NCBI GenBank assembly: GCA_029834535.1
Contig: JAQMWT010000268.1
Coordinates: 62,001 to 126,000, forward strand
Source of the DNA: Chrysophaeum taylorii
Lineage: Eukaryota > Sar > Pelagophyceae > Pelagomonadales > Pelagomonadaceae
Length of the DNA stretch: 64,000 bases
Reading direction: 5' to 3'
Shown piece after piece: positions 32,512 to 55,560 of the stretch. A program made the translations under genes and the position numbers. The notes under the pieces are model-generated. The model saw only the letters and a program-made list of their open reading frames with translations, ran no database searches and was not told where the DNA came from. Position 1 is the stretch's first letter. Each line of letters begins with the position of its first letter.

Positions 32512-32852
32512 AGGTGAACTTACTGGGACCAGGTGAACTTACTGGGGTTTGAGATTGGGATTAGGTGAACTTAGTGACCAGGTGAACTTACTGGGACCAA
32601 GTGAACTTACTGGGGTTTTTAGAGTGAACGCAAAGGCTAGCGGCGTGTACGGATCAAAGCAGCTTAGATTGGCGGAGGTGAGAGCGACGAGCTCGAAGGA
32701 GAGTGGGGTGAGTGGATGTGAGCACGAGTGGGCTTACGCCGAACTTACTGGGGTTAGAGATTGGGACTAGGTGAACTTACTGGGACCAGGTGAACTTACT
32801 GGGGTTAGAGATTGGGACCAGGTGAACTTACTGGCGAACTTACTGGCCTGCA
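32512..32852. repeat. GAACTTACTGG satellite after helicase block 1
   Basis: About nine copies of GTGAACTTACTGGG-like units alternate with GGGACCAG and GGGTTAGAGATTGGGACTA spacers. A non-repeated core (about 32,620-32,735) lies in the middle. The same organisation follows helicase blocks 2 and 3. Confidence 0.85.
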
Positions 32853-32902
32853 CTTGTCCTAACTACTAATCGACAGATGTTTGTCTGTCTGTTTGTTTGT
32901 CT

Positions 32903-33558
32903 GTCCCTCGATTTAGGGTAAGGATCAGGTAGGCGCGAGAGTAAGGATCAGGTAGGCGCGAGAGCCAGACAGTGATCCTCCAAGCCGTCTACGGCGACCT
33001 CGCAGACTATTTCCACGACCCGCGGCGGCTCTTTCAGCGCGCCATTCTCACGCCCCGTCGAAACGATGTTGTCGATGCTGACAACGCGCGCATGACCGCG
33101 GCCTTTTTTTCCCGGAGACGAGGCGTCGGAGTTCTTTTCGGCTGACTAGGCTGGGTCGGAAGACGACGCCTCGCTCTTAACAGTCGAGTTTTCGACTCCC
33201 TGACAACCAACGGCATGCTGACTTTGATCGCGAGCTTAAAGTCTTCGCAACCTCGACCCGTCGCACGGCCACTGCAACGGTACCAGATACATGATCGATC
33301 GTGTCGTTGTCACCGAGGCTCCTCCAACCTGTATCCCGTAAGGCCCGCCGACGCCAAACGATCACCAAGAGCCAGGGCCAGACGCCCCGCGAGGTCGGCG
33401 TCCTCTTGGCGAAGCCCGTCTTCTGCCACGTCCAGCTCTGCGTGGCTCTCTGTCGATCGGTAACCCCGAGGATATGCTCTTCTGAGTCGACGACTCCACC
33501 CTACCCCACACGTGCTGCGCAATACCGATAAGCCCCCTCCCGGCGTCTACACGTGCAC
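32903..33558 (+). mobile_element. PIF1-like helicase C-terminal block, copy 2
   Basis: Nearly identical to block 1 over its whole length, starting again at the CCTCGATTTAGGGTAAGG boundary after a (TTTG/TCTG)n run. It differs by scattered substitutions and small indels, including a CCTTTTTTTCCCGG insert after GACCGCGG near 33,100. It retains LFQRAILTPRRNDVV and [17 protein letters not shown]. Confidence 0.75.
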
Positions 33559-33913
33559 TGTAGGTGAACTTACTGGGACCAGGTGAACTTACTGGGTTTA
33601 GACATTGGGACTAGGTGAACCGAGTGACCAGGTGAACTTACTGGGACCAGGTGAGCTTACCGGTGAGCTTACCGGGGTTTTGTGACAACTCAAACTTAAA
33701 GGTTGGCGGCGCGTGCGGATCAAAGCAGCTTAGATTAGCGGAGGTGAGAGCGACGAGCTCGAAGGAGAGTGGGGTGAGTGGGTGTGAGCACGAGTGGGTT
33801 TGCCGGGATAGAGATTGGGACTAAGTGAACTAACTGACCAGGTGAACTTACTGGGACCAGACCTGAACTTACTAGGGTTAGAGATTGGGACTAGGTGAAC
33901 TTACTGGCCTGCA
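33559..33913. repeat. GAACTTACTGG satellite after helicase block 2
   Basis: Same alternating pattern as the satellite after block 1, but more diverged (GTGAGCTTACCGG variants). It ends in CTTGTCCTAACTACTAATCG and a TTTG run that leads into a short family C stub at 33,962. Confidence 0.8.
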
Positions 33914-34021
33914 CTTGTCCTAACTACTAATCGACAGATGTTTGTTTGTTTGTTTGTCTGTCTTTAAATGTCGACTGCTAAGAGGGGGGTGTGTGTGTGG
34001 GGAACATGAAGGTTTGTTTCA

Positions 34022-34488
34022 AAAGGTGAGGGTAGGAATGCCGGTCCTGGTGTGTGCGAGTGCCCGGGGCTATATATACCCCGGTGCTTCCCCATCATAG
34101 TGAAACGTGAACATCTGGGGCGAGTCAAGCATGTATGCGAGACGGTGGGGACCCAGCAAACGACGACGCCATCTGCTTAAGATGAATCTGCTTAAGATGA
34201 ACATCTGCGTCGGAGATGAACATCCGGTCCAGGTAAGTGAAAGCGCCCAGATGAGGGGGTCTAGTGTGTGTGCTAGACGATGGGGCTCCAGCAGTTGGCG
34301 ACGGCAACTGCTTCGAAGGCACTCACACACTCCTTGCGGCGCAGCGGTGGGGCGGATTCGAACGCGCGAACCACCTCGAGCGCTTTAAGGGCCCATAACC
34401 AAAAGGTGGGTTATGGACCCAGAAAGGTGAGGGTAGGAATGCCGGTCCTGATGTGTGCGAGTGCCCGGGGCTATATATACCCCGGTGT
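34022..34488. mobile_element. Small element with 63-bp direct terminal repeats (TRIM-like)
   Basis: An almost identical segment (AAAGGTGAGGGTAGGAATGC through GGGGCTATATATACCCCGGTG) lies at 34,022-34,084 and 34,424-34,486, with about 340 bp between. The repeats contain a TATATATA box inside a CCCGGGG palindrome. Next to the right repeat, read on the minus strand, lies a tRNA-like stretch (GTTCGAATCC preceded by CTTAAAG). It may be a primer-binding region or a tRNA-derived piece, but the stems do not pair well. The layout fits a terminal-repeat retrotransposon in miniature; no coding capacity is seen. Confidence 0.45.
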
Positions 34489-34514
34489 GTTTGTCTGTCT
34501 TTAAATGTCGACTG

Positions 34515-35143
34515 CCCTCGATATAGGGTAAGGATCATGTAGGCGCGCGAGCCAGACATTGATCCTCCAAGCCGTCTACGGCGACCTCGCAGACTGTTTC
34601 CACGACCCGCGGCGGCTCTTTCAGCGCGCCATTCTCACGCCCCGTCGAAACGATGTTGTCGATGCTGACAACGCGCGCATGACCGCGGCCTTTTTTCCCG
34701 GAGACGAGGCGTCGGAGTTCTTTTCGGCCGACTAGGTTGGGTCGGAAGACGACGCCTCGCTCTTTACAGTCGAGTTTTCGACTCCCTGACAACCAACGGC
34801 ATGCTGACTTTGATCGCGAGCTTAAAGTCTTCGCAACCTCGACCCGTCGCACGGCCACTGCAACGGTACCAGATACATGATCGATCGTGTCGTGTCACCG
34901 AGGCTCCTCCAACCTGTATCCCTTAAGGCCCGCCGACGCCAAACGATCAACAAGAGCCAGGGCCAGACGCCCCGCGAGGTCGGCGTCCTCTTGCCCAAGC
35001 CCGTCTTCTGTCACGTCCAGCTCTACGTGGCTCTCTGTCGATCGGCAACCCCGAGGATATCCTCTTCTGAGTCGACGACTCCACCCTACCCCACACGTGC
35101 TGCGCAATACCGATAAGCCCCCTCCCGGCGTCTACACGCGCAC
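34515..35143 (+). mobile_element. PIF1-like helicase C-terminal block, copy 3
   Basis: Third copy of the helicase block, beginning CCCTCGATATAGGGTAAGG directly after a family C stub. It keeps AILTPRRNDVVDADN and [20 protein letters not shown], the latter closest to the canonical PIF1 motif. Compared with copies 1 and 2 it lacks the duplicated AAGGATCAGGTAGGCGCGAG at the head. Confidence 0.75.
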
Positions 35144-35552
35144 TGTAAGTGGACTTACTGGGACCAGGTGAACTTACTGGAACCAGCTGAACTTACGGAG
35201 GTTAGAGATTGGGACTAGGTGAGAATAGTGACCAGGCGAACTTACTGAGACCAAGTGAACTTACTGGGGTTTTTAGAGTAAACTCAAAGGTTAGCGGCGT
35301 GTGCGGATCAAAGCAGCTTAGATTGGCGAGGGTGAGAGGGACGAGTTCAAAGGAGAGGGGTGAGTGGATGTGAGCACGAGTGGGCTTACGCCGAACTTAC
35401 TGGGGTTAGAGATTGGGACTAGGTGAACTTACTGGGACCAGGTGAACTTACTGGGGTTAGAGATTGGGACTAGGTGAACTTACTGGGACCAGGTGAACTT
35501 ACTGGGGTTAGAGATTGGGACTAGGTGAACTTACTGGCGAACTTACTGGCCT
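35144..35552. repeat. GAACTTACTGG satellite after helicase block 3
   Basis: Same pattern as the satellites after blocks 1 and 2, with a longer homogeneous run at 35,390-35,550 in which GGGTTAGAGATTGGGACTAG and GTGAACTTACTGG alternate three to four times. Confidence 0.85.
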
Positions 35553-39260: not shown

Positions 39261-39312
39261 CTGACGCGCTGAGAGGGTTTTCAAAGCGAAAATTGAAAAA
39301 ATACAAACGAAA

Positions 39313-40085
39313 CTACTGTAGGCCGTTTGGCGAATAGTAATTCTGGGGCCGCAGTACCCTACGTGTCCGTTCGCTAAGTATATAGTCGGTTTGTGGGAGT
39401 CAGTACTTTAGGTGCGTGTCCGTTGGCGAAGTATATAGTTGCTTTGTGGGAGTGAGTACTTTAGGTGCGTGTCCGTTGGCGAAGTATATAGTTGTTTTGT
39501 GGGAGTCGATACCTTTAGGTGCGTGTCCGTTGGCTAAGTATATAGTCGTTTTGTGGGAGTCGATACCTTTACGTGCGTGTTCGTCGGCGAAGTATATAGT
39601 TGTTTTGTGGGAGTCGATACCTTTAGGTGCGTGTTCGTCGGCGAAGTATATAGTTGTTTTGTGGGAGTCGATACCTTTACGTGCGTGTTCGTCGGCGAAG
39701 TATATAGTTGTTTTGTGGGAGTCGATACCTTTACGTGCGTGTTCGTCGGCGAAGTATATAGTTGTTTTGTGGGAGTGAGTACTTTAGGTGCGTGTCCGTT
39801 CGCTAAGTATATAGTTGTCTTGTGGGAGTCAGTACTTTAGGTGCGTGTTCGTCGGGGAAGTATATAGTCGTTTTGTGGGAGTCGATACCCTTACGTGCGT
39901 GTTCGTCGGCGAAGTATATAGTCGTTTTGTGGGAGTTACGTAATAGTTTATCAGGGAGTGGTGCTGTAATAGTTACTTTTTCGAAAGTCGTGTAATAGTT
40001 TATCGGGAGCCAAATAGTTTTGAGAATCGGAGAGAACAATTTGGATGCTGTCCGTTAAGCTGACGCAGCCGTCCGTTAACGGATC
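39313..40085 (+). repeat. Left inverted repeat, built of about eleven 54-bp units
   Basis: Units share GTGGGAGT, a TTAGGTGCGTG or TTACGTGCGTG word, TCCGTTGGC or TTCGTCGGC, and AAGTATATAGT. The two unit subtypes (T-A-G and T-A-C forms) alternate irregularly. The inner 150 bp (TAATAGTTTATCAGGGAG and GTCCGTTAACGGATC) is unique. Because 54 is a multiple of three, the array is open in all frames, and those frames are not genes. Confidence 0.9.
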
Positions 40086-40117
40086 AACTAGGTTCAGGCG
40101 TCGGTGTACAGGCCACT

Positions 40118-40512
40118 ACCCTAACCCTCCGATCGCTAACCGCATGGTTGCGGAGGACGGCGCCTAACACGCTTGCTCCCTGCGGCGGCCCCTGCCGTCC
40201 CGGAGTGAGACGGTGCCTCCTCGCCTCCCGGGCTGGCCAGGTAGCACCCGGAAAGTCCGCGTTGGGATGGGGTTCACTCGGTTGGGCAGAACGCGACGGA
40301 CAGGTCGATTGTTCGTGGACCAACACGTTCGCGGCCTGCGACGCTCTTGCACGACCTCGCACAAGACCGCGCGCAGTGGCGGTCCACCATCAACGAGTCC
40401 TCGTCCCTCGCCTCAGCCCCAACTGCGTGATTTTCCTCTGTGATTCCGGATCGGCTCCTGCATGTCCGGCCTGGCTCCCATGCTCGGGAGAGGTCTGAAG
40501 TTAGTTTAGTTA
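40118..40512 (+). mobile_element. LINE family A, long form, with 12-bp target duplication
   Basis: Flanked by GTACAGGCCACT at 40,106-40,117 and 40,513-40,524. It starts ACCCTAACCCTCCGATCGC and ends in a (TTAG)n tail. The start coincides with that of the copy at 53.3-53.7 kb, so about 400 bp seems to be a full-length, non-autonomous unit rather than a random truncation. Confidence 0.85.
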
Positions 40513-40524
40513 GTACAGGCCACT

Positions 40525-41770
40525 CAACACCACGTCAGTTTTTCTTTACGTCAACTTGCAGGCTCGCAACGGTCTTGGTTTGTGAGGCTCATGATTGTGG
40601 GCGACGGGAGGACTGGAAGCTCCAATCGTGGCCCGCGGCGTCTGGCTAGAGGACTGGAAGCGCCAGTCGTTCGTGGCCCCGACGAATGGGTCCTCGACGA
40701 GCACGTGCATGGCGACGGGTGTGGACACTGACGGCCAGAATGGCGAAGCTGCTGAGGTGATGACGACCATCTGTGTCAGGCTGCATCGCGACGGCGCCGA
40801 TCGGTGATCCAAGTCCGCGTCACGAAACGAGCCAGCGACACGGTTGGCAACTCGGTGAAGTTTCACGGCGACGCCACGCGATTTTGTAAGCAGCTGGTTA
40901 GATGACCTTCGAAGACGTTCGCATGAGGCGCGCGACGACGGCCGCACCGATGTGTTCGAAACCCACGGCAATGTGGTGGCTTGTGTTGGGTTCTATATTT
41001 GATGACTCCGGTCGGGTGACGCGCCATGCAAGTGGCACGAATGTGGGCGCGCGCTCAACATTTCGCACGTCAACATCCCTCACTGACGTTCCGGGCGCAC
41101 AAACTTCTGTAAAGCCGCCTACGAAGACAACCGGCGGTTTGCAGATTGAGACGACGGGCCGATCAGACCAACACCGTGTGTTCCGCGACGAGCCCAAAGT
41201 GTGCCCCCGACCAACCATAAAGCCCAGCGCATTTGTTTCGTTGAAACCACCGTGACGGTGCGGCTGGTTGCCTATGGTTTACAATTTCATGCCACGTCAA
41301 AGGCCCGCACCGACACTGAAACGCAGCCACTGCCGCCCTGCTCCCTACTTCGCCAGCAAGAAGCGGTACCCCATAGAGCACCTCACCATCAAGGGATTTG
41401 TCGTCCCAGTCTCTAGGCCAACGCCTGCATCCGTACGCCCGGCCCCTTGCGGCGTTCTCTTGCGATGATCGTGCGTCTCGCGGGCGATTGCGCGTCGGCA
41501 CCTGCACACCGCGCCCTCGAGCATTCGCTTCGCTGTTACTCCTTCGTATACTGTGACGACGTCTTAAATGTTTGTGTGAACACCGCGCCTTTTCTGTCGT
41601 TTAGGAGGGGTACACGCGACGAGCACGATGCGCTCCGACAAGAGTCCGATGATGCTCGGGCGAACTGCACAGTCCGCGTTTGTGTCCACCTTGGTGCTTT
41701 CTCGCATGACGTCAACGCACCGTAGTCAGTCTAACCTTTGAGTTACTCCTAAACCCTTGTGTAAAAAAAA
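40525..41770. other. 5' flank of the integrase-core gene
   Basis: No second gene could be supported; frames on both strands lack domains. The 20 bp before the ATG hold an A-run (GTAAAAAAAA). Confidence 0.4.
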
Positions 41771-43155
41771 ATGCAGGTTGGAGACGATGTGTCCATCGAC
41801 GGAGATGATTCAGGTCACTCGAACCTGACGCAAGCGGAGATCGTGAAGCTTGCTATCGAAGAGGGCTGCCGTCCTTGCCAGGTCTTCGACCGCCTCAGAG
41901 GTGCGGGCTTTTGCGTCACGCGCAGCCGCTTGCGCACCCTGTTGCAAAAACAAGGCTTCGAGGGGTACACCGGCATAAGCGATGACGATCTCGTCAAGGT
42001 GACCTGTCTGTCTCGTGTCGCAGACGACTCCCCGCACATTGCGCAGGAAGTCTGCGACATCTTAGAGCAGCAGCATGGCCGCATCGGTGGCACTGTGGCT
42101 GCTGGGGCTCTACGTGCGCGAGGAATCATCGTCCAGCGTCGGCGGCTGCGTGCTGCATTGCACCGAGCCCGCGACTTTTCGGCGAACACGCCGACCGCGA
42201 CACGAAGGCCGACGTACTTCAACGGCGTGGCGCCCGACTTCGTGTGGTGCCTGGACTCGAACTGCAAGCTCGCCAAATTCCGTATCTACTTCCACGCCGT
42301 CATCGACGGCTTCTCGCGCTTATGCAAGTTCCACTACGCCACGGTGCGGCTGGACTCGGGCACCCTGTTTCAAGGGTTCCTCAAAGAGCTCCTGCTGCTT
42401 GGACATGTCCCTCACCACCTTCGGCTCGATCGGCACAGGGGCTGGTACGGCATCGAGGATTTCATGTGGGCACTCATGGGCGAGCGCGACCCAGACCTCG
42501 TGCCGGTCGGCAACGGCGAGTATGTGCTCGTGGACACAGTCCAGCACGGCAAGTCGACGCATAATACGCCCGTCGAGATCCAGTGAGGCCAGTGTTCTGA
42601 ATGGAAATTTGCTGCTGCGATGAAGAATAGTGCTAATGTTGAGATAAGGGTTCGCGCAGGTGGCGGTTCCTGAACGAGACCACGGCGAAGTGGTACAACG
42701 AGTTCTGTCGCCTGCAGCGCGACGGGCTCCTCGCGCATGAGAATGACCCCGACTTCGACGTGGACATCTGGTGCCTCCACCGTGTATACTTGGGGCCATT
42801 GTGCGAGAACGTCAGTGAGCACTACCGCGCCCTCAACTTTCGACCGCGGCGATGCTCTAGCCGCAATCCGTTCTACGTTTCGGGTTCGCCGGTTGATGTG
42901 TATCGGAAACATCCGACCGTCCGCGAGAACTTCGATATCCACCGTATTGATGCGGTACTCCTAGACCTTGAGGACAACATACACATCGAGCCAGCCCCGG
43001 CCGAGGGCTACGAGCGCTCCCCTCTGGAAGGAACACGCTGGGAGGGACGCCTCGAAGGCGCTGTCGCTACTGTACGTGCGTCTAGGGAATATTCCTTGCG
43101 CACCAAGTACCTCTTACTACGAATGGTTGTCCACGAGTTTCTCGACGCCGACTAA
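41771..43155 (+). CDS. Integrase-core (DDE) transposase-like protein, spliced, 435 residues
   Basis: Exon 1 is 41,771-42,582 and exon 2 is 42,660-43,155, with a 77-nt intron (GTGAGG ... CGCGCAG) containing a TGCTAATG branch-like word. There are two N-terminal helix-turn-helix-like regions: residues about 18-62 (LTQAEIVKLAIEEGCRPC ... RLRTLL) and about 95-131 (AQEVCDILEQQHGRIGG ... RRRLRAAL). The catalytic core from residue 155 has the first Asp in VWCLDSN, DGFSRL, and the second Asp in LRLDRHRGWYG. A Glu follows in HNTPVEIQ, close to the splice junction, where the related eukaryotic proteins have HNQRIERLW. After it comes a C-terminal helical region with DIWCLHRVYLGPL. It belongs to the large group of integrase-core proteins found in fungi, animals and algae whose transposons are poorly defined. 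It should bind the element's inverted repeats and catalyse its movement. The frame looks whole. Confidence 0.75.
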
Positions 43156-44374
43156 TGCTAATTCACGTGAATCAGCCCCATGGCACGAATCTCGGCCGCG
43201 GTCGACAGCAGTTGGTCGACTGATTGGCTGGGTAAGCTGGGTAAGCTAGGAATGTGTCGACTGTTTTGCGCACGTGTTCCAACAGGGGAGCTAGAGCCTG
43301 GCAAGAAAGTGTGGACGGGGGATGTGGCGAAGGTGTTCCTTGATCCCCGAGTTTCACTTTTCAGGGAGGGTGCTGATCTTGGTGTTGATTTCCTCGCGGA
43401 TGCCGGCGTCGACGTCGCATCGAGTATCTCAGTCCTCAGCTTCGAGGCGCTACGAATGCGCTCGTGTCGCGAGGATGCACCACCGCATCCGTTTTGCAGG
43501 CGCGCCGCAGTAACGGCTATTGAGGCGCGCAAAGACGGTCACACGCTAGTTCGCCTTGTGAGAAATGGAGACAAGGGATGCGGAGGGTGTCGCAAGCGTG
43601 CTGTCGTACATCTTTTCCTGAGTTGTCTCAATGTTCGAAAACTTTGACAAGTTCTCGACCACGAGAGCTTTGAGGATGCCGGTCCTCGAGGTCGTTGTTG
43701 AGAAGGAGGTGCTCGGCGACGGCTCGCATCATCACATTCCCGCGGCGAGTGTGAGCCCCATATTCTCGGACCGGCACGTGGAAAATCCGCGTCAGGATAG
43801 CGCACTCGTGTGCTTCTCTTTCGTGCCCATCGTACGTGTGCCCGTGCGACGAGACTTGGTTAATGCTGCGCAGGTCGGACATGTCCATGAGCTCGCCAGT
43901 ATTACTATCAGGGTTCAACATTTTCTTCATCTTGAGGCGGGCCTCCACCATGTCTTCGACGGCAACCTCGACTACGACTGGGCTCAGGTGATTTTCCCTC
44001 AGATGCCCAACACGACGGGTGAACACAACAACCCTGGACACGACACGGACGGTAACGCCGAATCCGGTGGCGAGGCTGACGATAAGGAGCCCTTAAGCCG
44101 CTTGCCGCCGACATCCAACGACTAAGCCTCACTCTGGTCGTATGTCGCAGCCTCGTACTCAGCCACTCAAATCGAGTTCACTCCACATGTCAGCCTCGAA
44201 CACACACTCCCTACTACCGTGTCGTAGACGGTCAAAATCGCGCGAGACTCTTGCAAAAGAATGTTTGCATATACGCAAGTGCCGCAATGACTAGCACAAT
44301 GTTGTTGCGAGTGGCTTCGGGTGCGGACACAATGCAGGCGCATATGTGACGCGGAATGTCCCTTACCCTGATCG
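43156..44374. other. Inner right part of the TIR element, no clear gene
   Basis: A minus-strand frame at 44,041-43,628 (MLNPDSNTGELMDMSDLRS and HECAILTRIFHVPVREYG) has reasonable protein texture and might be a second element gene read towards the left, but no domain is recognised. The plus strand 43,180-43,647 is open but looks like the shadow of it. Confidence 0.35.
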
Positions 44375-44718
44375 CCGACCGCATGGTTGCGATGGAGGAC
44401 GGTGCCTCCTGAACCTGCGCCTTGCGAGGGCATCCGTCCCCCCGGCGTAGGTTGGCGCCTGTTCGCCTCCCGGGCGGGCCGGTTGGCAGCCGGAACGTTC
44501 GCGGTGGGACGGGATATGGCCGGGGGACGCTGAAGGAAGCGTTAACAGCGAGATGGTTGTCAGTCACATCGCGGTCTCCGCGTCGCATGGCGATTGATTG
44601 TCACTCTCCGCCGACCGACCTTTCGGCGCTCCTCGTCTACAGGCCCGTGATTCCGGACTGGCTCCTGTCGGTCCGGCCTGGCTCCCATGCTCGGGAGAGG
44701 TCTGAAGTTAGTTAGTTA
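44375..44718 (+). mobile_element. LINE family A, diverged subtype, at the inner edge of the right TIR
   Basis: Starts near ACCCTGATCGCCGACCGC, contains GCGGTGGGACGGGATATGG and CGGTCTCCGCGTCGCATGG (shared with the 13.3-kb copy), and ends CATGCTCGGGAGAGGTCTGA with a short (GTTA)n that runs directly into the TIR's GATCC. No target duplication is obvious. Confidence 0.7.
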
Positions 44719-45584
44719 GATCCGTTAACGGACGGCTGCGTCAGCTTAACGGACAGCATCCAATTTGTTCTCTCCGATTCTCAAAACTATTTGGCTCCCG
44801 ATAAACTATTACACGACTTTCGAAAAAGTAACTATTACAGCACCACTCCCTGATAAACTATTACGTAACTCCCACAAAACGACTATATACTTCGCCGACG
44901 AACACGCACGTAAGGGTATCGACTCCCACAAAACGACTATATACTTAGCCAACGGACACGCACCTAAAGTACTGACTCCCACAAGACAACTATATACTTA
45001 GCGAACGGACACGCACCTAAAGCACTCACTCCCACAAAACGCCGACGAACACGCACGTAAGGGTATCGACTCCCACAAAACGACTATATACTTCCCCGAC
45101 GAACACGCACCTAAAGTACTGACTCCCACAAGACAACTATATACTTAGCGAACGGACACGCATCTAAAGTACTCACTCCCACAAAACAACTATATACTTC
45201 GCCGACGAACACGCACGTAAAGGTATCGACTCCCACAAAACAACTATATACTTCGCCGACGAACACGCACCTAAAGGTATCGACTCCCACAAAACAACTA
45301 TATACTTCGCCGACGAACACGCACGTAAAGGTATCGACTCCCACAAAACGACTATATACTTAGCCAACGGACACGCACCTAAAGGTATCGACTCCCACAA
45401 AACAACTATATACTTTGCCAACGGACACGCACCTAAAGTACTCACTCCCACAAAGCAACTATATACTTCGCCAACGGACACGCACCTAAAGTACTGACTC
45501 CCACAAACCGACTATATACTTAGCGAACGGACACGTAGGGTACTGCGGCCCCAGAATTACTATTCGCCAAACGGCCTACAGTAG
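44719..45584 (-). repeat. Right inverted repeat, built of about twelve 54-bp units
   Basis: Inverse of the left repeat: GATCCGTTAACGGAC, the unique inner part, then ACTCCCAC and CTATATACTT units to the terminus CCTACAGTAG at 45,584. It is 93 bp longer than the left repeat owing to unit-number change, with one partial unit near 45,035. The similarity of the two arrays despite being tandem repeats implies recent origin or gene conversion. Confidence 0.9.
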
Positions 45585-45596
45585 AAACGATATAAT

Positions 45597-45922
45597 AACT
45601 AACTTAACTAACTTCAGACCTCTCCCGAGCATGGGAGCCAGGCCGGACCGGCAGGAGCCGGTGCGGAATCACAGAGGAAAATCACGCAGTTGGGGCAGGG
45701 CGACGGACGAGGACGGACTTGTTGATGGTGGACCGCCACTGCGCGCGGTCTTGTGCGAGGTTGTGCAAAAGCGTCGCAGGCCGCGGACGTGTTGGTCCAC
45801 GAACAATCGACCTGTCCGTCGCGTTCTGCCCAACCGAGCGAACCCCATCCCAGCGCGGACTTTCCGGGTGCTAACCGGCCAGCCCGGGAGGCGAGCAGGC
45901 ACCGTCTCACTCCGGGACATAT
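45597..45922 (-). mobile_element. LINE family A, 5'-truncated, just outside the TIR element
   Basis: Flanked by AAACGATATAAT at 45,585-45,596 and 45,923-45,934, a perfect 12-bp target duplication whose left copy begins exactly at the TIR element's last base. The copy is in reverse orientation with the (CTAA)n tail first. It breaks off at CACTCCGGGAC, so it lacks the ACCCTAACCCT head. Confidence 0.85.
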
Positions 45923-45999
45923 AAACGATATAATATCAAAATAATATCGATATAAAACGAAATTATATTTTGGCCCGTTATAAAAAACGTTTCAAGCTG

Positions 46000-46268
46000 T
46001 GAGGAAGCTATGACACTTACCCCTGCACCACGTATCCAGTATCCATACGTCTTTAAATGTCGACTGCTAAGAGGGGGGGGTGTGTGTGGGGAGCATGAAG
46101 GATGTGGGTGGGTTTGTGGGGTATGAGGGATGTGCCTGACGGGCGGAGATAAGTACGCGGGACCTAGTCGGGGTCATCGCCGAGGCGTGGGGCAGGCGAA
46201 GAGAGGACGGGCCCCGCCCATACGTCTTTCTCTTATCGCTAGTCTAACGCCTCATTCCATTCGTAACA
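46000..46268 (+). repeat. Copia 5' LTR, with a family C piece inside
   Basis: TGAGGAAGCTATGACAC ... CATTCGTAACA. Without the inserted 164-bp piece and its 11-bp duplication it is 94 bp and equals the 3' LTR at 51,392-51,485. Confidence 0.9.
46055..46218 (-). mobile_element. Family C piece inserted in the Copia LTR
   Basis: AAATGTCGACTGCTAAGAGG ... GGGCCCCGCC, identical in layout to the tail side of the family C units at 29-31 kb. It is flanked by CATACGTCTTT at 46,044-46,054 and 46,219-46,229. The 3' LTR has a single CATACGTCTTT with no insert, so this is a proven insertion with an 11-bp target duplication. It shows that family C is mobile and active after the Copia insertion. Confidence 0.9.
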
Positions 46269-49200
46269 TGGTACCAGGTGTCGTCGGCGGTCGAACGACT
46301 GCTTGACTTCACGGATAACGGCGACTCCTCCTCGGCTTCAGTTCATTGCTACGTGTTCGGTTCATTATCGTTTATCATGTCCTCGATCGAAATTAAGGAT
46401 AGCAAGCTTTCGCACAAACTTGATGCCTTCAGCGGTGCGCGACATCTTTTCCACCACTGGCCACGTCGTCTCGCGAACATGATCATCTCTACCGGCGATC
46501 ACATTATCTCGACCAACGATCCTTGGACTAGCATCTCAGCATCTCGCTGCTCTGAAGAAGACTTTCGCGTCAAGCAACAACGTTGATATCTATGACAACC
46601 GGGACATGAACTTCACGCGAACAACATGCCAACCGCGACATGAACTTCACGCGACTTTACAAGCGCATTACCGATGTCTACATGGGCCGTGGGGATCGCG
46701 TAGCGAACTTCCTTAACAAGTTCATCACTGGTGTTCAAGTTGCTCGGCATCATCAAGATTCCCCTGACGCACATGCATTGCAATTGCTTCAGACGAAAAT
46801 CCCCGACTCGCTCTTGTCTAAGGATCTCATTGCACTTGATCCTAAACTGCGCACATATGATGGTTTCGTTGATCGCCTCCACAGTAAAGTTTTTGATTAT
46901 CTTCAGACCAAGTCTGCGCATGTCCATGCCACGTTCCGTGAAAGTCCCCGTCATCGTGAACGTTCTAACTTTTGCGGTCGTCATCCTTCTGATAAGTACT
47001 TTCATCGCTTCAATGCTTTGCGCTCTCAACAACGTTCTAGCCCACGCCCCCCCTTTTCGATCATCATTTCGTAACCCACCTTCATCTTCACGTGGTTTCC
47101 ATCGCAAGCGCCCACGCCATACTGATCTTTGTCACTTTTGTGGTATTCCTGGCCATCACCAGAAAGATTGTCATAAGCGCCAGCGCTATTTGCTCTCACA
47201 AGCCACCGCCCGCCCTCGGCTTCAACACCAATACCCACGTCGGTCAAATTCCCAATACCCATCTCGGTCCAATCCCCAATACCCACCTAGGCCCCATCCA
47301 CCCTTCTACCAACACCATCTTTCCGCCCCCATTCCACCCTTGCCTCCATCTCAATCCTCTCCGCCGCTCCTTGCGCTGCCACCCTCCACCACACGCTCTG
47401 TCCCGCCTTCCACCGCTGTCACCCTTCCTGACCCATCCCTTTCTGCACCTACCTACCCCTCTTACAATTTCCATCTTCTTTCCATCTCTCCCTCCATTCA
47501 CCAAGTCCTTTACTCCACCAATGCCCTTACCGCTTTGCTCACCGCTCGTGAGCGCGACTACCTTCACAGCACCAACCTTCGTCTCGTTGTCTATGATACC
47601 GGCGCCAACGTCAACCTTTTTAACTCTCCCGCTGGTTTCACTGACCTTGACAACAGTCAACAGCATTCCATCACTTCTGCTATCGGCACTGGCTCTGTTT
47701 CTTGTTCTGGCACTGCTCACTTAACGTTCCCTTCAATTGGTCCTCTTGACAATCGTGGTCTTCCTTCTCCTGCACCCACTCTTTCCGCCCCTCATGGTAT
47801 ACATGTCGCGTTCCCGCATACCCTCATCTCTCCTGGCCTTGGTGACAAACGGATTCTTTCGGATCATGCCCTTGAACAAGTTGGTTACGATTGCCACACC
47901 ATTCAGGCCGTTGGCCCTGCTTATCCGCAACGTATTTTACGTCACCGCCAAACGCATTACATTATTCCCCTGCTTCGTCGCTGTGGTCTTCTTTTGATCG
48001 TCTGTTGGATCGGCAATACGACCGCTGCGCCCTACGCGGACTACGTTTCGCCTTTTGTGGCATTTTCTTCTTGCCCCCGTGTCAATGACCCTTGTGCGTT
48101 TCCCGCTGTGTCTCAACGCACTCAACTTACCTTCGACCTTTGGCATGCTCGTCTTGGTCATTATAGTCCTCCCTATCTTCGGCGTTTGTCTTCTCTTGCT
48201 GTTGGCGCACCGTTTTTCCCGAGCTCCGCGTCGCTTTCTTTTTGTCCTGCTTGTGCTCTCGGTAAAATGCACGCTGCGCGTGTTGGCCAACGTAAAGCTC
48301 ATGCTTCCGCTTCCACTTCGCCTCCTTCCTCCGAGCCTTTGTCTCGTCCACGTGCCGTTGCGCCCTACCTTATTATCCACGCCGATCTCATGTTTGCCGG
48401 CGTCCCATCCTTCATATATCAAGATCGCGCGATCCTCACGTTTGTCGATGATCATACGCGCCGCCGCACGCGTTACTTTGCTCCACGACACGATGCCCTT
48501 ACGAACGCTCGTCAACTCGAACTTTTTCTGTCTACCGTGGTTCGCCCATTCGGATATCGCATTGCCCTCATCTACACCGATCGTGACCGCTCTCTTATGG
48601 GCCAATTCGAAACCTTCTGTCTGGGCAACAATATTTGCCCTTAAGCGCGCTCCGGCGGCACAGTCCAAAACTTCACAGGCGCACGCTTTTTCCGGTGTTG
48701 TGGAACGCTCTCATCGCGCAACCGCTGATATTACTCGCACTCTTTTGGTACATGCGCACCGTCCACCTGATTTTTGGCGTTGGGCCATGGAAACGGCTGA
48801 CTTCATCTCTGAGCGTATGCCAAATGCCTCTAATCCTGGATATATGACGCCATACGAAATGCTACATGAAACTTTACCGCGTGTCGATTTTCTTCGTGTT
48901 TGGGGCTGTCCTGCTGCAATTCTTACTGGCGACAAATGGCCTACCAAAGCTATAACCGGTATCTTCATTGGGTATCCCTCTGCAGGCCCTGGATATCGCA
49001 TATTGCTTCAACGCCCCACAGGTCCTGTCATCCACACCTCGATTGATGTTGTTTTTGACGAAAATTTCGCTCTGCGTAAGTCACTGTCCACTCAACCCCT
49101 TCCTCCGTCTCTAGTGGATTCTCGTTTTCCTGACTTGTTTTATCACGTCCCTCGTTTATCTTCGGCCGTGGGCCCCATGTCTTCTGTTTTTGATGCTCCG

Positions 49201-51391
49201 GAGCCGGCCTTATCGGGACTGATCATCCCTGAAACAACTCAACCGTCACTGAATACACTGTTACCGGACAATACGAAACGTGCACCATTACGTCGTGCCA
49301 AACGGGGCCGACCGCGCAAAGTCGACCAACGCGCGTTACAACAACCAACAAACTTTTATACGGGCCATTCTGTTTCATCCTGTCACAATGTCGATACGGG
49401 CCATTCTGTTTCCTCCTGTCACGATGTTGATTCTGTTTCCTCTGTCGCTTCTGTTTCCTCCTGTAACTCTTTGTATGTCTCTTCTGTTAGCTTTCGTTTG
49501 TTAGTTCATTATGTCTTCCTTCCCCTTTGTTTAGCTAACACCCTTGTTGATCCCTATGCACACGTTTATTACTCTGCTTCCGAAGAAATGTCTCAGTATT
49601 CAGACCTTGACGAAACTACTATTACTTCCACCCATTTACGTGAAGCTTTAGCTCCGACCAATCCTGAGCGTCCTGGCTGGTTGCAAGCCATCGCTAAAGA
49701 ATACAGCTCTCTTGGTCTGCTTGGTTGCTGGGATGTTATTCGCCTTCCTTCGACTTTTTCTGGCAACATTTGTACCCTCAAGTGGATCCTCCGCAAGAAG
49801 TATGACTCTGGCCGCTTCAAATCGTACAAGGCTCGCCTAGTCGTCCGCGGTTACACCCAGGTTCACGGCATTGATTATCATGACACCTACTCACGGGTTG
49901 CCAACATCGCCACGATCCGTTTCTTTCTAACCTTTGTCGCTGTTCATGACTGGGATTTGCACAAGTTGGATGTCAGCTCCGCTTTTATTCAAGCTCCCAA
50001 TGACGAAGACATCAGTGTCTGGCCACCCGAAGGCTATGCTCCTCGCCAACCCACGGATGGTTCCAAAATCGTTTACAAGCTCCGCCGCTCTTGGTATGGG
50101 TGCAAACAAGCTTGTCGCAATTGGTGGCTTTATTTGGAACGCTTCCTTCTCAATGATTGTGGCTTCGTCCGCGGATCTGGTGACACTTGCCACTACAAGC
50201 TCGTGCTCAATTCTACCGCTGTGCTCCGTCTCGTTTTAGTCTTTGATGATCTTCTTGTGGCGCACCCTCGTCATTGCATTGGCCATTACCAAGCCTTTTT
50301 CCCCCGTTTCCGCGCTTTCACTGACGTCAATGAACTTGATCTCACCTCTTACGTTGGTCTTCGCATTACGCGTGATCGCCCTCGGAGAACCCTCACTCTT
50401 GACCAATCCCATGCTATCCGTGAAATCCTTACCGAACATCGCTTCATCAACAGTAAACCCGAACTCACTCCCGCTCCCAAAGGTCTTCATCTTTCTGCGG
50501 CTGATTGTCCTACTCCTGGTTCTCCAGATCACATTTTCATGGCACGCATCCCTTTTCGCCGTATTGTTGGCTGTGTCCTCTTCATCTCCATCATGACTCG
50601 CCCTGATATCACTTGGTTCGTCAATCAGTGTGCGGGTTTTTCCCACTATCCTGGTAAACCCCACTGGCACGCTTTATCCCACACTCTGCGTTATCTCAAC
50701 GGTTCTCAGGATCTTGCCCTTATTCTTGGTCGCGATTCTACCCTTCGTCTCTGTTGTTATTCCGACTCCAGCTGGGCCGACGACCCTGATGACCGCCACT
50801 CGACAACTGGTTTTTGTTTTCTCCTTGCTGGCTCTATGATAGCCTACTGCTCCCGCTCGCAGTACTTACTTGCCCGCTCTTCTCTTGAAGCTGAATTGCT
50901 CGCTCTTTACGCTGCTCCTGCTGAGCTCTCTTGGCTTCTCAAACTTTTTGATGACTTTGATCTCCCTCGTCACACGGTCCCAATGTATGTTGATAATAGC
51001 ACGACCGTCACCCAAGTCCGTCTCCAATGTCTCACACGGCGCACCCGCCATATTGACATTCGCTTTTACAGTACCGCCGAATATCATCGCAACCACATCA
51101 TTGATCTCAAACACATACCCCGCCTTCACAATCTTAGCGACATTTTCACCCGCAGTACGGAAGCTCCTTCCTTCCTCCGGCTTCGTGCTCTTTACCTCAC
51201 TTCGTGATCTTCGCCCTGATCTCTGTTGTTTTTCTTTCTTGCCACAATGCCTCTATGACGTCTCCTCAAAGCTTCTCCTCTGTGAGCGTCTCACTTACCC
51301 TTTCTTTTTTTCCTTTTTCTTTCTTTTTCCAGCACCTATATGAGGACCTCACTTACCTCTTTTCCCTTTTCTTTCTTTTCCAGCACCTGCG

Positions 51392-51485
51392 TGAGGAAGC
51401 TATGACACTTACCCCTGCACCACGTATCCAGTATCCATACGTCTTTCTCTTATCGCTAGTCTAACGCCTCATTCCATTCGTAACA
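51392..51485 (+). repeat. Copia 3' LTR
   Basis: 94 bp, TG...CA, preceded by a pyrimidine-rich tract with two CAGCACCT words (51,330-51,390). It serves as the empty-site reference for the insertion in the 5' LTR. Confidence 0.9.
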
Positions 51486-51492
51486 CAAGCTG

Positions 51493-54400
51493 TTCAATAT
51501 ACAGAGCACCCTGCTTTAGATGACGAGGGGAAGCTGATGATGAAGCATCTAATCTCGTATTCGTGGGCAATTCCCGATGATGTGATGAGACCTGCTGATT
51601 TTCACCTGAAGTGACGCTCCGGTTCAAAGAAGAGAAACCGACTCCCGTCAAACTCTCGCCATATCGGTTGTCGAAAGAAAAGATTGAATGTTTGCGGATG
51701 CAGATTGAAGAATGGGCCCGAGACGGAGTTATTCGTCCTGCGAATTCTCCATGGGGTTTCCCTATTTTGATGTTGCCTAAGAAAGGTGCTGAGCCTGGCA
51801 CTTCCAATGCTTACAGGGCAGCTGTCGACCTACGGCGCCTCAACGCATTGCTCAAGGATGATAGCTGGCCGAGTGTGAGCATGGCTGACGCGTTGATGTT
51901 TCTCATCGATAAGTTCCGTCGTTCCAGTTTGGATATTCGTTGGGGCTATCACAATTTACGATTGTCGCTAGATGCACAAGATGTGGTCACCTTCACTAGT
52001 CCTCTGGGAGCGTTTAGCTACATGCGTCTACCTTTGGGAGTCAAACCAGCCGGAAGTTTGTTCCGTAAGCAGCTGAACACTGACTTGTCGAAATGGCTAT
52101 ATCGTGATCAAGTGGCATATATCGACGATATTCTCGCGGGTCACACAGATACAAAGAATCACTTGCAGTGCCTTGTGCAAGTTATTCCCCATCTCGCCTT
52201 GAAAGGGCACAGCGCCAAGATCAAGAAGATCCATTTTATGCGAGAAGTCATTGAGTATTTGGGTCATTTATCCACCCCGAAGAGACTTCTTCCATCACCA
52301 AGGTCTTTAGAAGCCATCAGACACATGCCAGTTCCTGGCACTTTGTCGGATGCTGACCCTAAGAAGCAAGTGCGGTCTTTCCTTGGAATGGGGAGTTCTT
52401 GCCGGCGTTATGTAAGGAATTTTGCGAAAGTTGCAGAGCCATTAAGACAACTGACGTTGCCGGACGTGAAATTCAAGTGGACGATAGAGTGTCAGGAAGC
52501 TTGGGATACCATCATCGAGGCTATTGTCACTTCGAAGGGTGTCTACCATCCTGATTACTCGTTGCCTTTCTACATTCGAACTGATGCTTCCGCGCATGGG
52601 TTGGGTGCTTACCTATTTCAAAAGGTACCAGTCGTTGCCGACGATGGAAGAGAAAGAATAGAAGAGAGAGTTATTGAGTACTGGAGTCGAACCGTGCCTA
52701 AGTCGATGAGGAAGTATGATCCTCGGCGCTTGGAACTCCTCGCAGTAATCTCCGCTCTTGAAAATTTCCGCTTTTATATCGAAGGTCATCAGACGAAATT
52801 AGAGACGGATCATCGTAATTTAACGTTTCTTCGGGATTCGAATCATACGTCTGGACAGTTAGCACGATGGACTATGCGGCTTGCTGCGTTCGACCGGGAG
52901 CTCGGATACAAGCCTGGAAATTCCCCTGGCATGCGCATCCCGGATTGTCTGTCGCGCAGCACTATCGACAAGTTGATCGAGAAAGACGAAGACGGGGAAC
53001 CAATCACCGAAGCTTATTTGATCTTCCAAGAAACCCCCACCGATGTACCTGACACAGCCTGTTTAACCTTCTCTTCGGTGACGATGCCTATACCGACGGA
53101 CAGCGGACCCACCGCAGCTATGGCAGCAGTTAGTACGCGACAGAATGTACAACCGCCTCAATTCTCGTACGAGTCTGAGCCAGTTGACTCCGTCGAACGT
53201 CTTCCTTTTGCGGATCAAGCTGAGGATACGATCACTCTCGATGAGATAGCGAAAGAACAAGCTGAAGATGACACATGCAAGCGCTAACTAACTAACTAAC
53301 TAACTAACTTCAGACCTCTCCCGAGCATGGGAGCCAGGCCGGACAGGCAGGAGCCGATCCGGAATCACAGAGGAAAATCACGCAGTTGGGGCTGAGGCGA
53401 GGGACGAGGACTCGTTGATGACGGACCGCCACTGCGCGCGGTCTTGTGCGAAGTCGTGCAAAAGCGTCGCAGGCCGCACACGTGTTGGTGCACGAACAAT
53501 CGACCTGTCCGTCGCGTTCTGCCCAACCGAGCAAACCCCATCCCAGCGCGGACTATCCGGGTGCTAACCGGCCAGCCCGGGAGACGAGCAGGCACCGTCT
53601 CACTCCGGGACGGCCGGGGCCGCCGCAGGGAGCAAGCGTGTTAGGCGCCGTCCTCCATCGCAACCAACGGTTAGCGATCTCAGGGTTAGGGTTGCAAGCG
53701 CATCAGACGAAATCTCGATTCTGAACAGAAAGATCAAGACGAGCAGTCATCCGTACCGTATGAAGTTGATAACAACGTGCTGTATAAGGTCGATGATTCG
53801 GATTCTCAACGTCTAATTGTGGTCCCTGAGTCGATGCGAAAGCGTGTAGTCGCCATGCATCACCGAGGATCGTTCGGAGGCCATGTAGGACGAGACTCCA
53901 CAGCGAATCAAATCTTAGAACGGTATTGGTGGCCAAACGTCTCATCATCAGTTAATGAGCTCGTCAATGCCTTCATTATTTGCCAGAAGATTCGATCCAC
54001 CTTGCCTAAGCGTCATGGCTTGCTCTGTCAACCGAGTCGCGTCGGAGATTGCTATGTCCTAGGTATGGATCTGATTGGGCCTCTGCGAGGCGCTGACCTG
54101 TACACGTACATACTCGCGATGTACGATGCAGCATCACATTTCTTGAAATTACCTCTGATTAATACTAAACATGATTATTCAATTTTGAGCGCGCTTGTGG
54201 ACAAGATTTTACTTGAGGGGTGTCTCCCACGGTGCATAGTCACGAATAATGGAAATGAGTTCGCGAACAGGTTATTTCGCACGTTTGTTCGTCAATTCAA
54301 CGCACGTTATCGTACTGCCCTTCCGTATCACCCTCAGAGTAACCACACTGAACGTGTCACCCGATTTATCAAAGCCTTCTTGCGAGCTGCGATCGATGAA

Positions 54401-55560
54401 CAGCGTCAGCCAGATTGGTCGAATTTCCTCCCATATGTGGCATTCATGTACAATAGGATGTACATTCCGGGAACGAAGATTTCACCTTTCATGATGCGTA
54501 CTGGCAAGCAACCCCTGTTACCACCCGATTACAATCTTTTGAGTGAACAGCGTGATCTACCGCAATCACGTCATCAGATTTTGGTGGACTTTAAGAACAA
54601 GTTTGAATTTTATAGTCGACTCGTTACACGAGCTCACCGCAAAGCACAGGAGAGCCAAAAACTCAACTATGATGCCCACCAAATTGACCTCCAGTTTTCC
54701 GCAGGTGATTATGTTCTGCGTTTCGTGCCTTAGACGCGCCACAAGCTACGTCCCATTTGGCGCGGGCCTTACATAGTTACCAGAAAGATCTCTCCGATCG
54801 TTTACGAAATTCAGGACGTCAACGACGATGATGCTGACTCGGTTGTAGTATCTGTACAACAGATTGTGCTTTTGAAAGTGCCAACCATCGACACTTCTTC
54901 AGCCCCTCTGCATTTACCTTCAGTCCGCGACCGTTTCAAACATGGCAAGTTCGTGATTTTCAGGGTTAAAGGACGATCCAACGCGCGGAAGAAGCGTATC
55001 TACGTTGCCGAAGTCTATGAAGAATATGATCATGACAATGATACAGTTGCGCTTCACTACTATACCGATTTGGGACCGCGCGATGATCCTCGTGTTTTTG
55101 ATCCTACTAAGCCTCTGGCTGAGCGACGTTTAAGACCAGAATACAAGGACCCTGATGGAGGTAGCTTCACACGCCTACGACCAAACATGGAGGGCTGTGA
55201 ACCCTGTGTGACTGATTTTCGCCCGGATGAAATCGACGTCCTCGTCAGTAACTTCGGCCTCCACAGCAACAAAGTTCCTGCTGATGTAGCTGACCGAGCT
55301 TATCGTACCATTCGTGAGCGTGACCTTCGTCGCCCTTGAAGTCGAGGACGACTTCATCTCAAGTAGGGGGCTCCTGTGGCAGTAACGCCCATCCCCCCAC
55401 TTGCCTGCCTGCCACTTGACTTACCCTGATTGTTGCCGTGGTACTGACCTTGCAATTATAGGGGGGGTGTCCCCTTGAGACCCTCACCTGCGCTTCCACT
55501 GAACCCAATGTACCAGACATTTGTACTGCTTTCTTGCTGTCTGGTCCCTGCCGCCCTGCC
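51493..55560 (+). mobile_element. Ty3/Gypsy retrotransposon, 5' part missing
   Basis: Parts in order: reverse transcriptase (51.6-52.3 kb; LPLGVKPAGSLFRKQL, VAYIDDILAGHTD), RNase H (FYIRTDASAHGLGAYLFQ, LETDHRNLTFLRD), a LINE-A insertion, then integrase (53.8-54.7 kb; zinc-binding HHRGSFGGHVGRDST, ALPYHPQSNHTERV). A C-terminal region at 54.87-55.34 kb (FVIFRVKGRSNARKKRIYVA) may be a chromatin-binding tail. A purine tract AAGTAGGGGGCT and TGTGGCAGTAACGCCC at about 55,362-55,390 probably mark the start of the 3' LTR; its end is not found. Gag and protease are not present in the window. It is broken a few times besides the LINE insertion, and is older than the Copia next to it. Confidence 0.85.
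53285..53692 (-). mobile_element. LINE family A, long form, inside the Gypsy element, 9-bp target duplication
   Basis: Flanked by TGCAAGCGC at 53,276-53,284 and 53,693-53,701. It is in reverse orientation: (TAAC)n tail first, then the body, ending at the head AGGGTTAGGGT (inverse ACCCTAACCCT). The length of about 408 bp and the head match the copy at 40,118-40,512. Confidence 0.9.

Follow-up and report, generated by a model that had tools for sequence, protein, structure and literature searches.

A probable IS3-like DNA transposon with minisatellite inverted repeats in the alga Chrysophaeum taylorii

The element in the window

We analyzed a stretch of 64,000 nucleotides from the pelagophyte (stramenopile) alga Chrysophaeum taylorii (contig JAQMWT010000268.1, positions 62,001 to 126,000 of the forward strand), hereafter the window, which holds an element of 6,270 bp whose exact span is 39314-45583 in window coordinates. 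The element starts with TACTGTAGGCCG and ends with CGGCCTACAGTA, and between two long terminal inverted repeats (TIRs) it carries one intact, spliced gene of two exons for a protein of 435 amino acids with an integrase core. The element has defined ends and short target-site duplications (TSDs) of the staggered-cut type, its gene was found solely inside the element, near-identical copies occupy different sites in the genome, and deletion derivatives occur both with and without the transposase gene. We think it probable that this is an IS3-like DDE transposon that has moved recently, with superfamily IS3EU/GingerRoot as its most probable home. The window copy (C268) has the following features.

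39309..39313, no strand: left TSD, GAAAC, which occurs once in each of two paralogous sites that lack the element
39314..40085, plus strand: left TIR, 772 bp, starting with TACTGTAGGCCG (inverted-repeat comparison)
39362..39936, plus strand: left array of 53/54-bp units with 11 GTATATAGT motifs (Tandem Repeats Finder, TRF, and motif count)
41771..42582, plus strand: transposase exon 1, with D162, D220 and E269 and a putative N-terminal helix-turn-helix (HTH)-like part
42583..42659, plus strand: 77-nt GT..AG intron inside the Q271 codon, two residues past E269; the splice matches the GenBank protein
42660..43155, plus strand: transposase exon 2, with stop codon TAA (gene model)
44350..44365, no strand: deletion scar, from which about 7.6 kb of copy C53, with module B, is gone; about 10 bp of filler at 44353-44362 (junctions aligned)
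44719..45583, minus strand: right TIR, 865 bp, ending with CGGCCTACAGTA (inverted-repeat comparison)
44868..45535, minus strand: right array of 53/54-bp units with 12 motifs and one 94-bp step (TRF and motif count)
45584..45588, no strand: right TSD, GAAAC (direct reading)

The initial annotation, made from the letters of the window, had described a DNA transposon with long inverted repeats built of a 54-bp minisatellite and one intact spliced integrase-core gene between them. The repeats and the gene were confirmed by the arm alignment, by a TRF period of 54 bp at 39362-39936 and 44868-45535, by the motif count and by the gene model, and the transposon itself by the TSDs, dispersed copies and unoccupied sites described below. 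The arms pair over 419 nt at 99% (39313-39731 with 45166-45584) and over 322 nt at 98% (39764-40085 with 44719-45040), which together make up the arms of 773 and 866 bp first noted. Exact GTATATAGT motifs are spaced at 53-54 bp apart from the single longer step, and the right arm, compared with the left, has one unit fewer and one additional partial block. The 18-bp inverted termini that had been proposed are real, but their outermost C and G belong to the GAAAC duplication, as its last and first base. A search with the 24-base terminus, allowing up to 3 mismatches, gave 27 matches in the genome against 0 for the reversed control, which rules out chance; a chance inverted repeat was likewise rejected.

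Other kinds of element were also rejected. The terminal repeats are inverted and no reverse transcriptase was recognised in the scanned frames, which speaks against a long terminal repeat (LTR) retrotransposon, the Copia-like copies described below being separate insertions; none of the genes of a Polinton/Maverick was recognised in the frames scanned. Two small open frames, at 43171-43647 and 43622-44125, were among the frames scanned and gave no Pfam family above the cut-off.

The predicted transposase

The window protein is alike to the GenBank protein CTAYLR_005536 of C. taylorii at 434 of 435 residues, and it matches PF24764 (rva_4) with E=3e-17, scoring 63.3 bits against a Pfam gathering cut-off of 26. 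Comparison with integrase and transposase profiles, which the initial annotation had proposed, thus gave rva_4 above its cut-off and a similarity to IS3 and IS481 below the curated cut-offs. We refer to the C. taylorii transposase as P0001 and to its relatives as P0007 and P0008. Their NCBIfam matches to IS481 and IS3, all far below the curated cut-offs, had E-values of 1.5e-5 and 2.4e-4 for P0001, 8.6e-6 and 2.1e-8 for P0007, and 3.8e-6 and 1.4e-9 for P0008. These two relatives were the only proteins besides the query itself that a search with the protein core recovered among 176 candidates, and a search with the whole length returned only the query itself among 7,992 scored candidates. P0007 (437 amino acids, 59% alike) has the source label mmetsp, which we take to denote a marine eukaryote transcript, and P0008 (337 amino acids, 61% over two thirds) comes from a metagenome according to its source label.

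The three proteins agree at D162, D220 and E269, with 57 residues between the two aspartates and 48 between the second aspartate and the glutamate, which suggests DDE catalysis by the 435-residue protein. An N-terminal HTH-like part is predicted as well. No H-H-C-C array of the HHCC zinc motif was seen by eye in the transposase, and its one CxxC (C33/C36) is not present in P0007. A search of solved structures gave two matches (E 0.73 and 0.82) that were judged to be due to chance. Among viral contigs the P0001 pattern gave 0 matches and the three-protein profile gave 25 pattern matches, 0 of which were confirmed; a tblastn search of phage records gave no match.

Copies in the genome

In the 70.8-Mb genome, a 288-bp probe from the left arm matched 75 pieces spread over 20 contigs, which is a lower bound, and 18 of these 20 loci were inspected (the window and 17 others). 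The published C. taylorii genome is given as 71 Mb in 702 contigs, and the main text of that paper contains no word starting with "transpos" or "repeat" (PMC10366177). Both ends were present in 9 of the 18 loci, namely C268, C6, C62, C53, C281, C113, C480, C677 and C333. C268 and C6 were counted as one site on two contigs because their flanks are identical and a further dispersed repeat lies about 39.9 kb on in both, which leaves eight distinct two-ended sites. A TA start and a TA end were found in 9 of 9 two-ended loci, the left end being TACAG in C333 and TACTGTTGG in C677.

In the genome, with 85 of 85 candidates scored, the PF24764 profile matched at six places, and all six lie inside copies of the element (C268, C6, C53, C62, C113 and C684). 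With P0007 as the query, 16 of 16 matched pieces, on 7 contigs, were likewise inside the element; they correspond to the same six gene copies and to a weak, decayed seventh in C48 (E 0.003 and 0.005), which matches the window protein with E 9e-43 and has one diverged terminus. The genome therefore holds what the initial annotation had anticipated, copies that share both termini and gene, and no PF24764 place with the gene outside the repeats. A domesticated single-copy gene was ruled out by these six places within the element. The six gene copies are 99.7-100% alike to the window copy, from which the spread of the element is judged to be recent; the frame is open in four of them (C268, C6, C53 and C684) and broken by single-base deletions in C113 (one) and C62 (two). 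A separate locus of about 2 kb, C415 (L027), contains array units that have diverged and lie in both orientations; its termini are poor, and it is perhaps a shrunken foldback derivative.

Target-site duplications and unoccupied sites

Perfect TSDs flank five of the eight distinct two-ended sites, so that the duplication length, which the initial annotation had left to a comparison of several copies, is 5 bp at four sites and 6 bp at one. The 5-bp duplications are GAAAC at C268 (and at C6, the same site), GAGAT at C62, AAAAG at C53 and TACTG at C281; the 6-bp duplication is CTGCAC at C113. The element has thus integrated at defined ends via staggered cuts of 5-6 bp. Unoccupied paralogous sites fit this insertion model. 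Two unoccupied paralogs of C268 carry GAAAC exactly once and continue 8-9 bases past the junction; for C62, four continue about 6 bases or more past it. With the flanks of C53 joined around one AAAAG, all 40 copies scored of a dispersed repeat (from 289 candidates) span the junction. The empty-site search with C480 recovered just its own flanks and is uninformative.

The element may leave its donor site by cut-and-paste or, as IS3 does, through a copied circle. IS3-like joined-end junctions numbered 0 in the assembly, a result of little weight, since an assembly would not contain circles.

At 32512-35537 the window also holds arrays of a 19-bp unit, AGGTGAACTTACTGGGACC. Sequence like it borders the element at C113 and C281, and such repeats can therefore serve as targets.

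A longer two-module form

Copy C53 is 13,742 bp long and has about 7.6 kb of additional DNA between points equivalent to 44352 and 44363 of the window. Most of this DNA is a segment of about 5.8 kb, module B, which recurs at 98-99% in C281, C199 and C333, where the transposase gene is absent, and of which a part of about 1.1 kb is found at 95-96% in C416. C268, C6, C62, C113 and C684 run straight over the same junction and have no module B, and C281, C199 and C333 have another deletion end that is common to all three. The diverged copy C48, of which one end was seen, is collinear with C53 through the transposase, the intervening part and module B, its pieces being 72-97% (mostly about 77-88%) alike to C53; because it keeps the order of C53, the two-module form is judged old. 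The window element had been called complete or near-complete, but C53 and the diverged collinear C48 hold about 7.6 kb more. Judged by these alignments, the window copy has lost internal sequence and kept the transposase; that it is such a deletion derivative is newly recognised here. Clean TSDs occur in both kinds of derivative, transposase-only (C268, C62 and C113) and module-B-only (C281), so that each kind has moved; those that lack the transposase gene presumably move in trans.

Module B contains an open frame of 750 codons in C199, the length of which suggests a working gene. Its proteins were found only as five GenBank models, on contigs that agree in length with C199, C281, C53, C333 and C416, among 7,997 scored candidates. 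The four module-B pieces or proteins that were scanned gave no Pfam match, and thus no alpha-kinase or TET/JBP domain, and an AlphaFold model of the protein had a mean predicted local distance difference test (pLDDT) score of 28.4. Mismatches in the frame by codon position were 9/9/6 for C281, 9/9/4 for C333, 6/7/4 for C53 and 44/325, 44/332 and 41/327 for C48, with nothing aligned for C416; the counts for these four copies give no sign of selection, and the coding status of module B is therefore weaker than its open length implies.

Arrays across copies

Array counts are counts of exact motifs, which miss mutated units. Most two-ended copies have 9-15 motifs per arm, often unequal between arms; the low-count arms are the right arm of C677, with 4, and both arms of C480, with 2 each. 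The proposal that the minisatellite expands and contracts agrees with this variation between arms and copies. Array units at least 70% like the consensus were aligned (13 of 223 and 163 of 369 anchor matches were dropped), and with either anchor the resulting 210 and 206 units, drawn from 17 loci, showed each base of AAGTATATAGT conserved at 97-100%, while a few positions outside it alternate. This conservation fits binding sites and, equally, a recent common origin. Homogenisation between the arms of one copy was unsupported, the closest relative being the arm's own partner for 5 of 16 arms, with one more tie. Retention of arrays is no evidence on their role, because the loci were found with an array-bearing probe.

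Other repeats in and around the element

A Copia-like retrotransposon family, a name that reflects what we take to be a resemblance of its frames, has inserted within the inverted-repeat zone in at least six copies: C62, C520, C333, C199, C480 and C48 (L010, L018, L019, L022, L026 and L028). Its LTR is 96 bp long in the C62 copy, and 5-bp duplications GTAAT, CAAAT and AGTTT were seen by eye. The LTR start has 911 matches in the genome (up to 2 mismatches); the 18 loci hold 19 such starts, six of which abut an inverted-repeat zone and a seventh of which (C677) lies 7 bp outside the terminus. Insertion into these zones may be targeted, although the loci had been selected by the presence of the element, without a control. 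A related copy at 45998-51485 of the window starts about 415 bp to the right of the element, and open frames at 51611-54733 appear to resemble a Gypsy-type reverse transcriptase and integrase. A dispersed repeat with a GTTAGTTAG-like end occurs twice in direct orientation inside the element (40119-40514 and 44365-44718) and once, inverted, just outside it (45598-45918); by appearance it resembles a short interspersed nuclear element or the tail of a long one.

Interpretation

We propose that the 435-residue protein would bind the ends of the element through its N-terminal HTH-like part, that the 53/54-bp arrays would supply it (or a partner) with many extra binding sites near each end, and that the DDE domain would cut the ends and insert them at target sites with staggered cuts. 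Derivatives lacking the gene would be mobilised in trans. We take the longer two-module element as the ancestral form and the window copy as a transposase-only derivative.

Several observations weigh against this interpretation. Three of the eight distinct sites have no perfect TSD (C480 shares four of five bases; C677 and C333 have none), and the unoccupied paralogs read CAAAG or CGAAG for C53 (6 loci shown) and GAGGT or AAGGT for C62 (4 loci shown), which are not the exact duplications. The AlphaFold model of the transposase is poor (mean pLDDT 42.9), and the HTH assignment comes from helices in this model together with a sub-cut-off match of P0008 to HTH_21 (E=0.025). Between the transposase and the decayed C48 copy, mismatches by codon position were 109/386, 104/387 and 103/384, with no signal of selection. 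As to the superfamily, four of the five clean sites have a TSD of 5 bp and that of IS3EU is usually 6 bp, and neither the missing HHCC motif nor the place of the first catalytic D is diagnostic, since other families have them too. The element most likely belongs to IS3EU/GingerRoot, a placement made by profiles and termini.

We also considered that another transposase, for example one encoded by module B, moves the inverted repeats, and that the integrase gene caught between them is cargo or has been domesticated. Copies with module B and no integrase gene do exist at C281 (with a clean TSD), C199 and C333, and the long C199 frame matches no Pfam family; against this, the PF24764 places and the P0007 matches all fall within the element, copies without module B have inserted with clean TSDs at C268, C62 and C113 and also at C684, and the conserved D, D and E accompany a similarity to IS3 and IS481 profiles. 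We regard this explanation as very improbable. A model in which the IS3-like transposase (module A) and the orphan module-B protein act jointly on the end arrays, in which the ancestor had both, A-only and B-only derivatives complement each other in trans and array length tunes transposition, is speculative, and we would not expect it to hold. More plausible, if still the less favored possibility, is that the arrays play no part in transposition and expand and contract as a passive minisatellite, which is compatible with an IS3-like transposon. Such passivity would suit the variable motif number and the survival of just 2-4 motifs in C480 and in one arm of C677; the high conservation of AAGTATATAGT speaks against it, although recent common origin may account for this equally well.

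Alternatively, the element might represent a separate, unnamed eukaryotic superfamily of IS3-like origin, distinct from IS3EU/GingerRoot and marked by 5-bp TSDs and minisatellite ends. The predominant 5-bp duplication, the slightly better NCBIfam rank of P0001 as IS481 than as IS3, the D-D-E spacing and the finding of just two relatives would agree with this. It is nevertheless unlikely, as the TA..TA termini agree with the published description of IS3EU/GingerRoot, which the missing HHCC motif and the first-D position do not contradict (PMC10045372), one site has a 6-bp TSD, and P0007 and P0008 score better as IS3 than as IS481. The initial annotation had assigned the element to a poorly described group; a named superfamily, IS3EU/GingerRoot (PMC10045372), is most likely the better description.

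With this element, PF24764 integrase-core proteins gain a mobile element with exact ends, TSDs and unoccupied sites in a stramenopile alga. As near-identical copies have open frames, activity can be tested, and so can the need for module B, given the split into A-only and B-only derivatives.

Comparison with known systems

Prokaryotic IS3 and IS481 elements are compact, with short terminal repeats, no intron and no arrays; their likeness to the element lies at the profile level, across the catalytic and upstream region. IS481EU also has a eukaryotic IS3/IS481-like transposase, in keeping with the IS481 match of P0001, but is described with TSDs of about 4, 15 or 25 bp, TNT..AYA or TGT..ACA termini and TIRs mostly shorter than 50 bp, and is known from parabasalids (PMC10045372); the TACTG..CAGTA termini and 5-bp TSD ruled it out.

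Inverted ends made of tandem repeats are already known from Galileo and Foldback elements, for which long TIRs with internal repeats and deletion derivatives have been described (PMC3573991, PMC4079207). Expansion and contraction of the TIR tandem repeats of Galileo, with unit numbers unequal between arms and, in Galileo F, also between copies, is in print, and these repeats were proposed as secondary transposase-binding sites (PMC3573991), so that array binding by the transposase, which we suggest by analogy, is not a new idea in principle. Tetris is, by its title, a Foldback transposon that gave building blocks of a satellite DNA (PMC4079207). Galileo differs in its P-superfamily transposase, its Drosophila host, its unit and its termini (PMC3573991), and membership was rejected because the transposase here matches rva_4 and IS3-like profiles, with no P-type family listed. 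The joining of an IS3-like transposase to Foldback-like ends was not met in a limited literature search, in which any two of IS3EU, alga, stramenopile and tandem repeat gave no paper holding IS3EU among the 12 listed of 4,322 matches; the main text of an Ectocarpus transposable-element survey, within the same limits, has no mention of IS3EU (PMC12477816).

The closest likeness is to IS3EU and GingerRoot, in the IS3-related DDE transposase without an HHCC motif, the TA..TA termini and the short TSD. IS3EU is described with TA..TA termini, a TSD usually of 6 bp, no HHCC motif and a first catalytic D 100-300 residues from the N-terminus (residue 162 here), and GingerRoot with mostly TA..TA termini, a 6-bp TSD and no HHCC motif (PMC10045372). 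IS3EU elements of rust fungi end in TAYGG..CCRTA, and those bearing TET carry TET/JBP and alpha-kinase genes; rust-fungus members of IS3EU/GingerRoot have TIRs longer than 30 bp and further genes (PMC12730594). The element described here differs from IS3EU/GingerRoot in its TSD of 5 bp (6 bp once) as against the usual 6 bp, and in its ends, which are long arrays.

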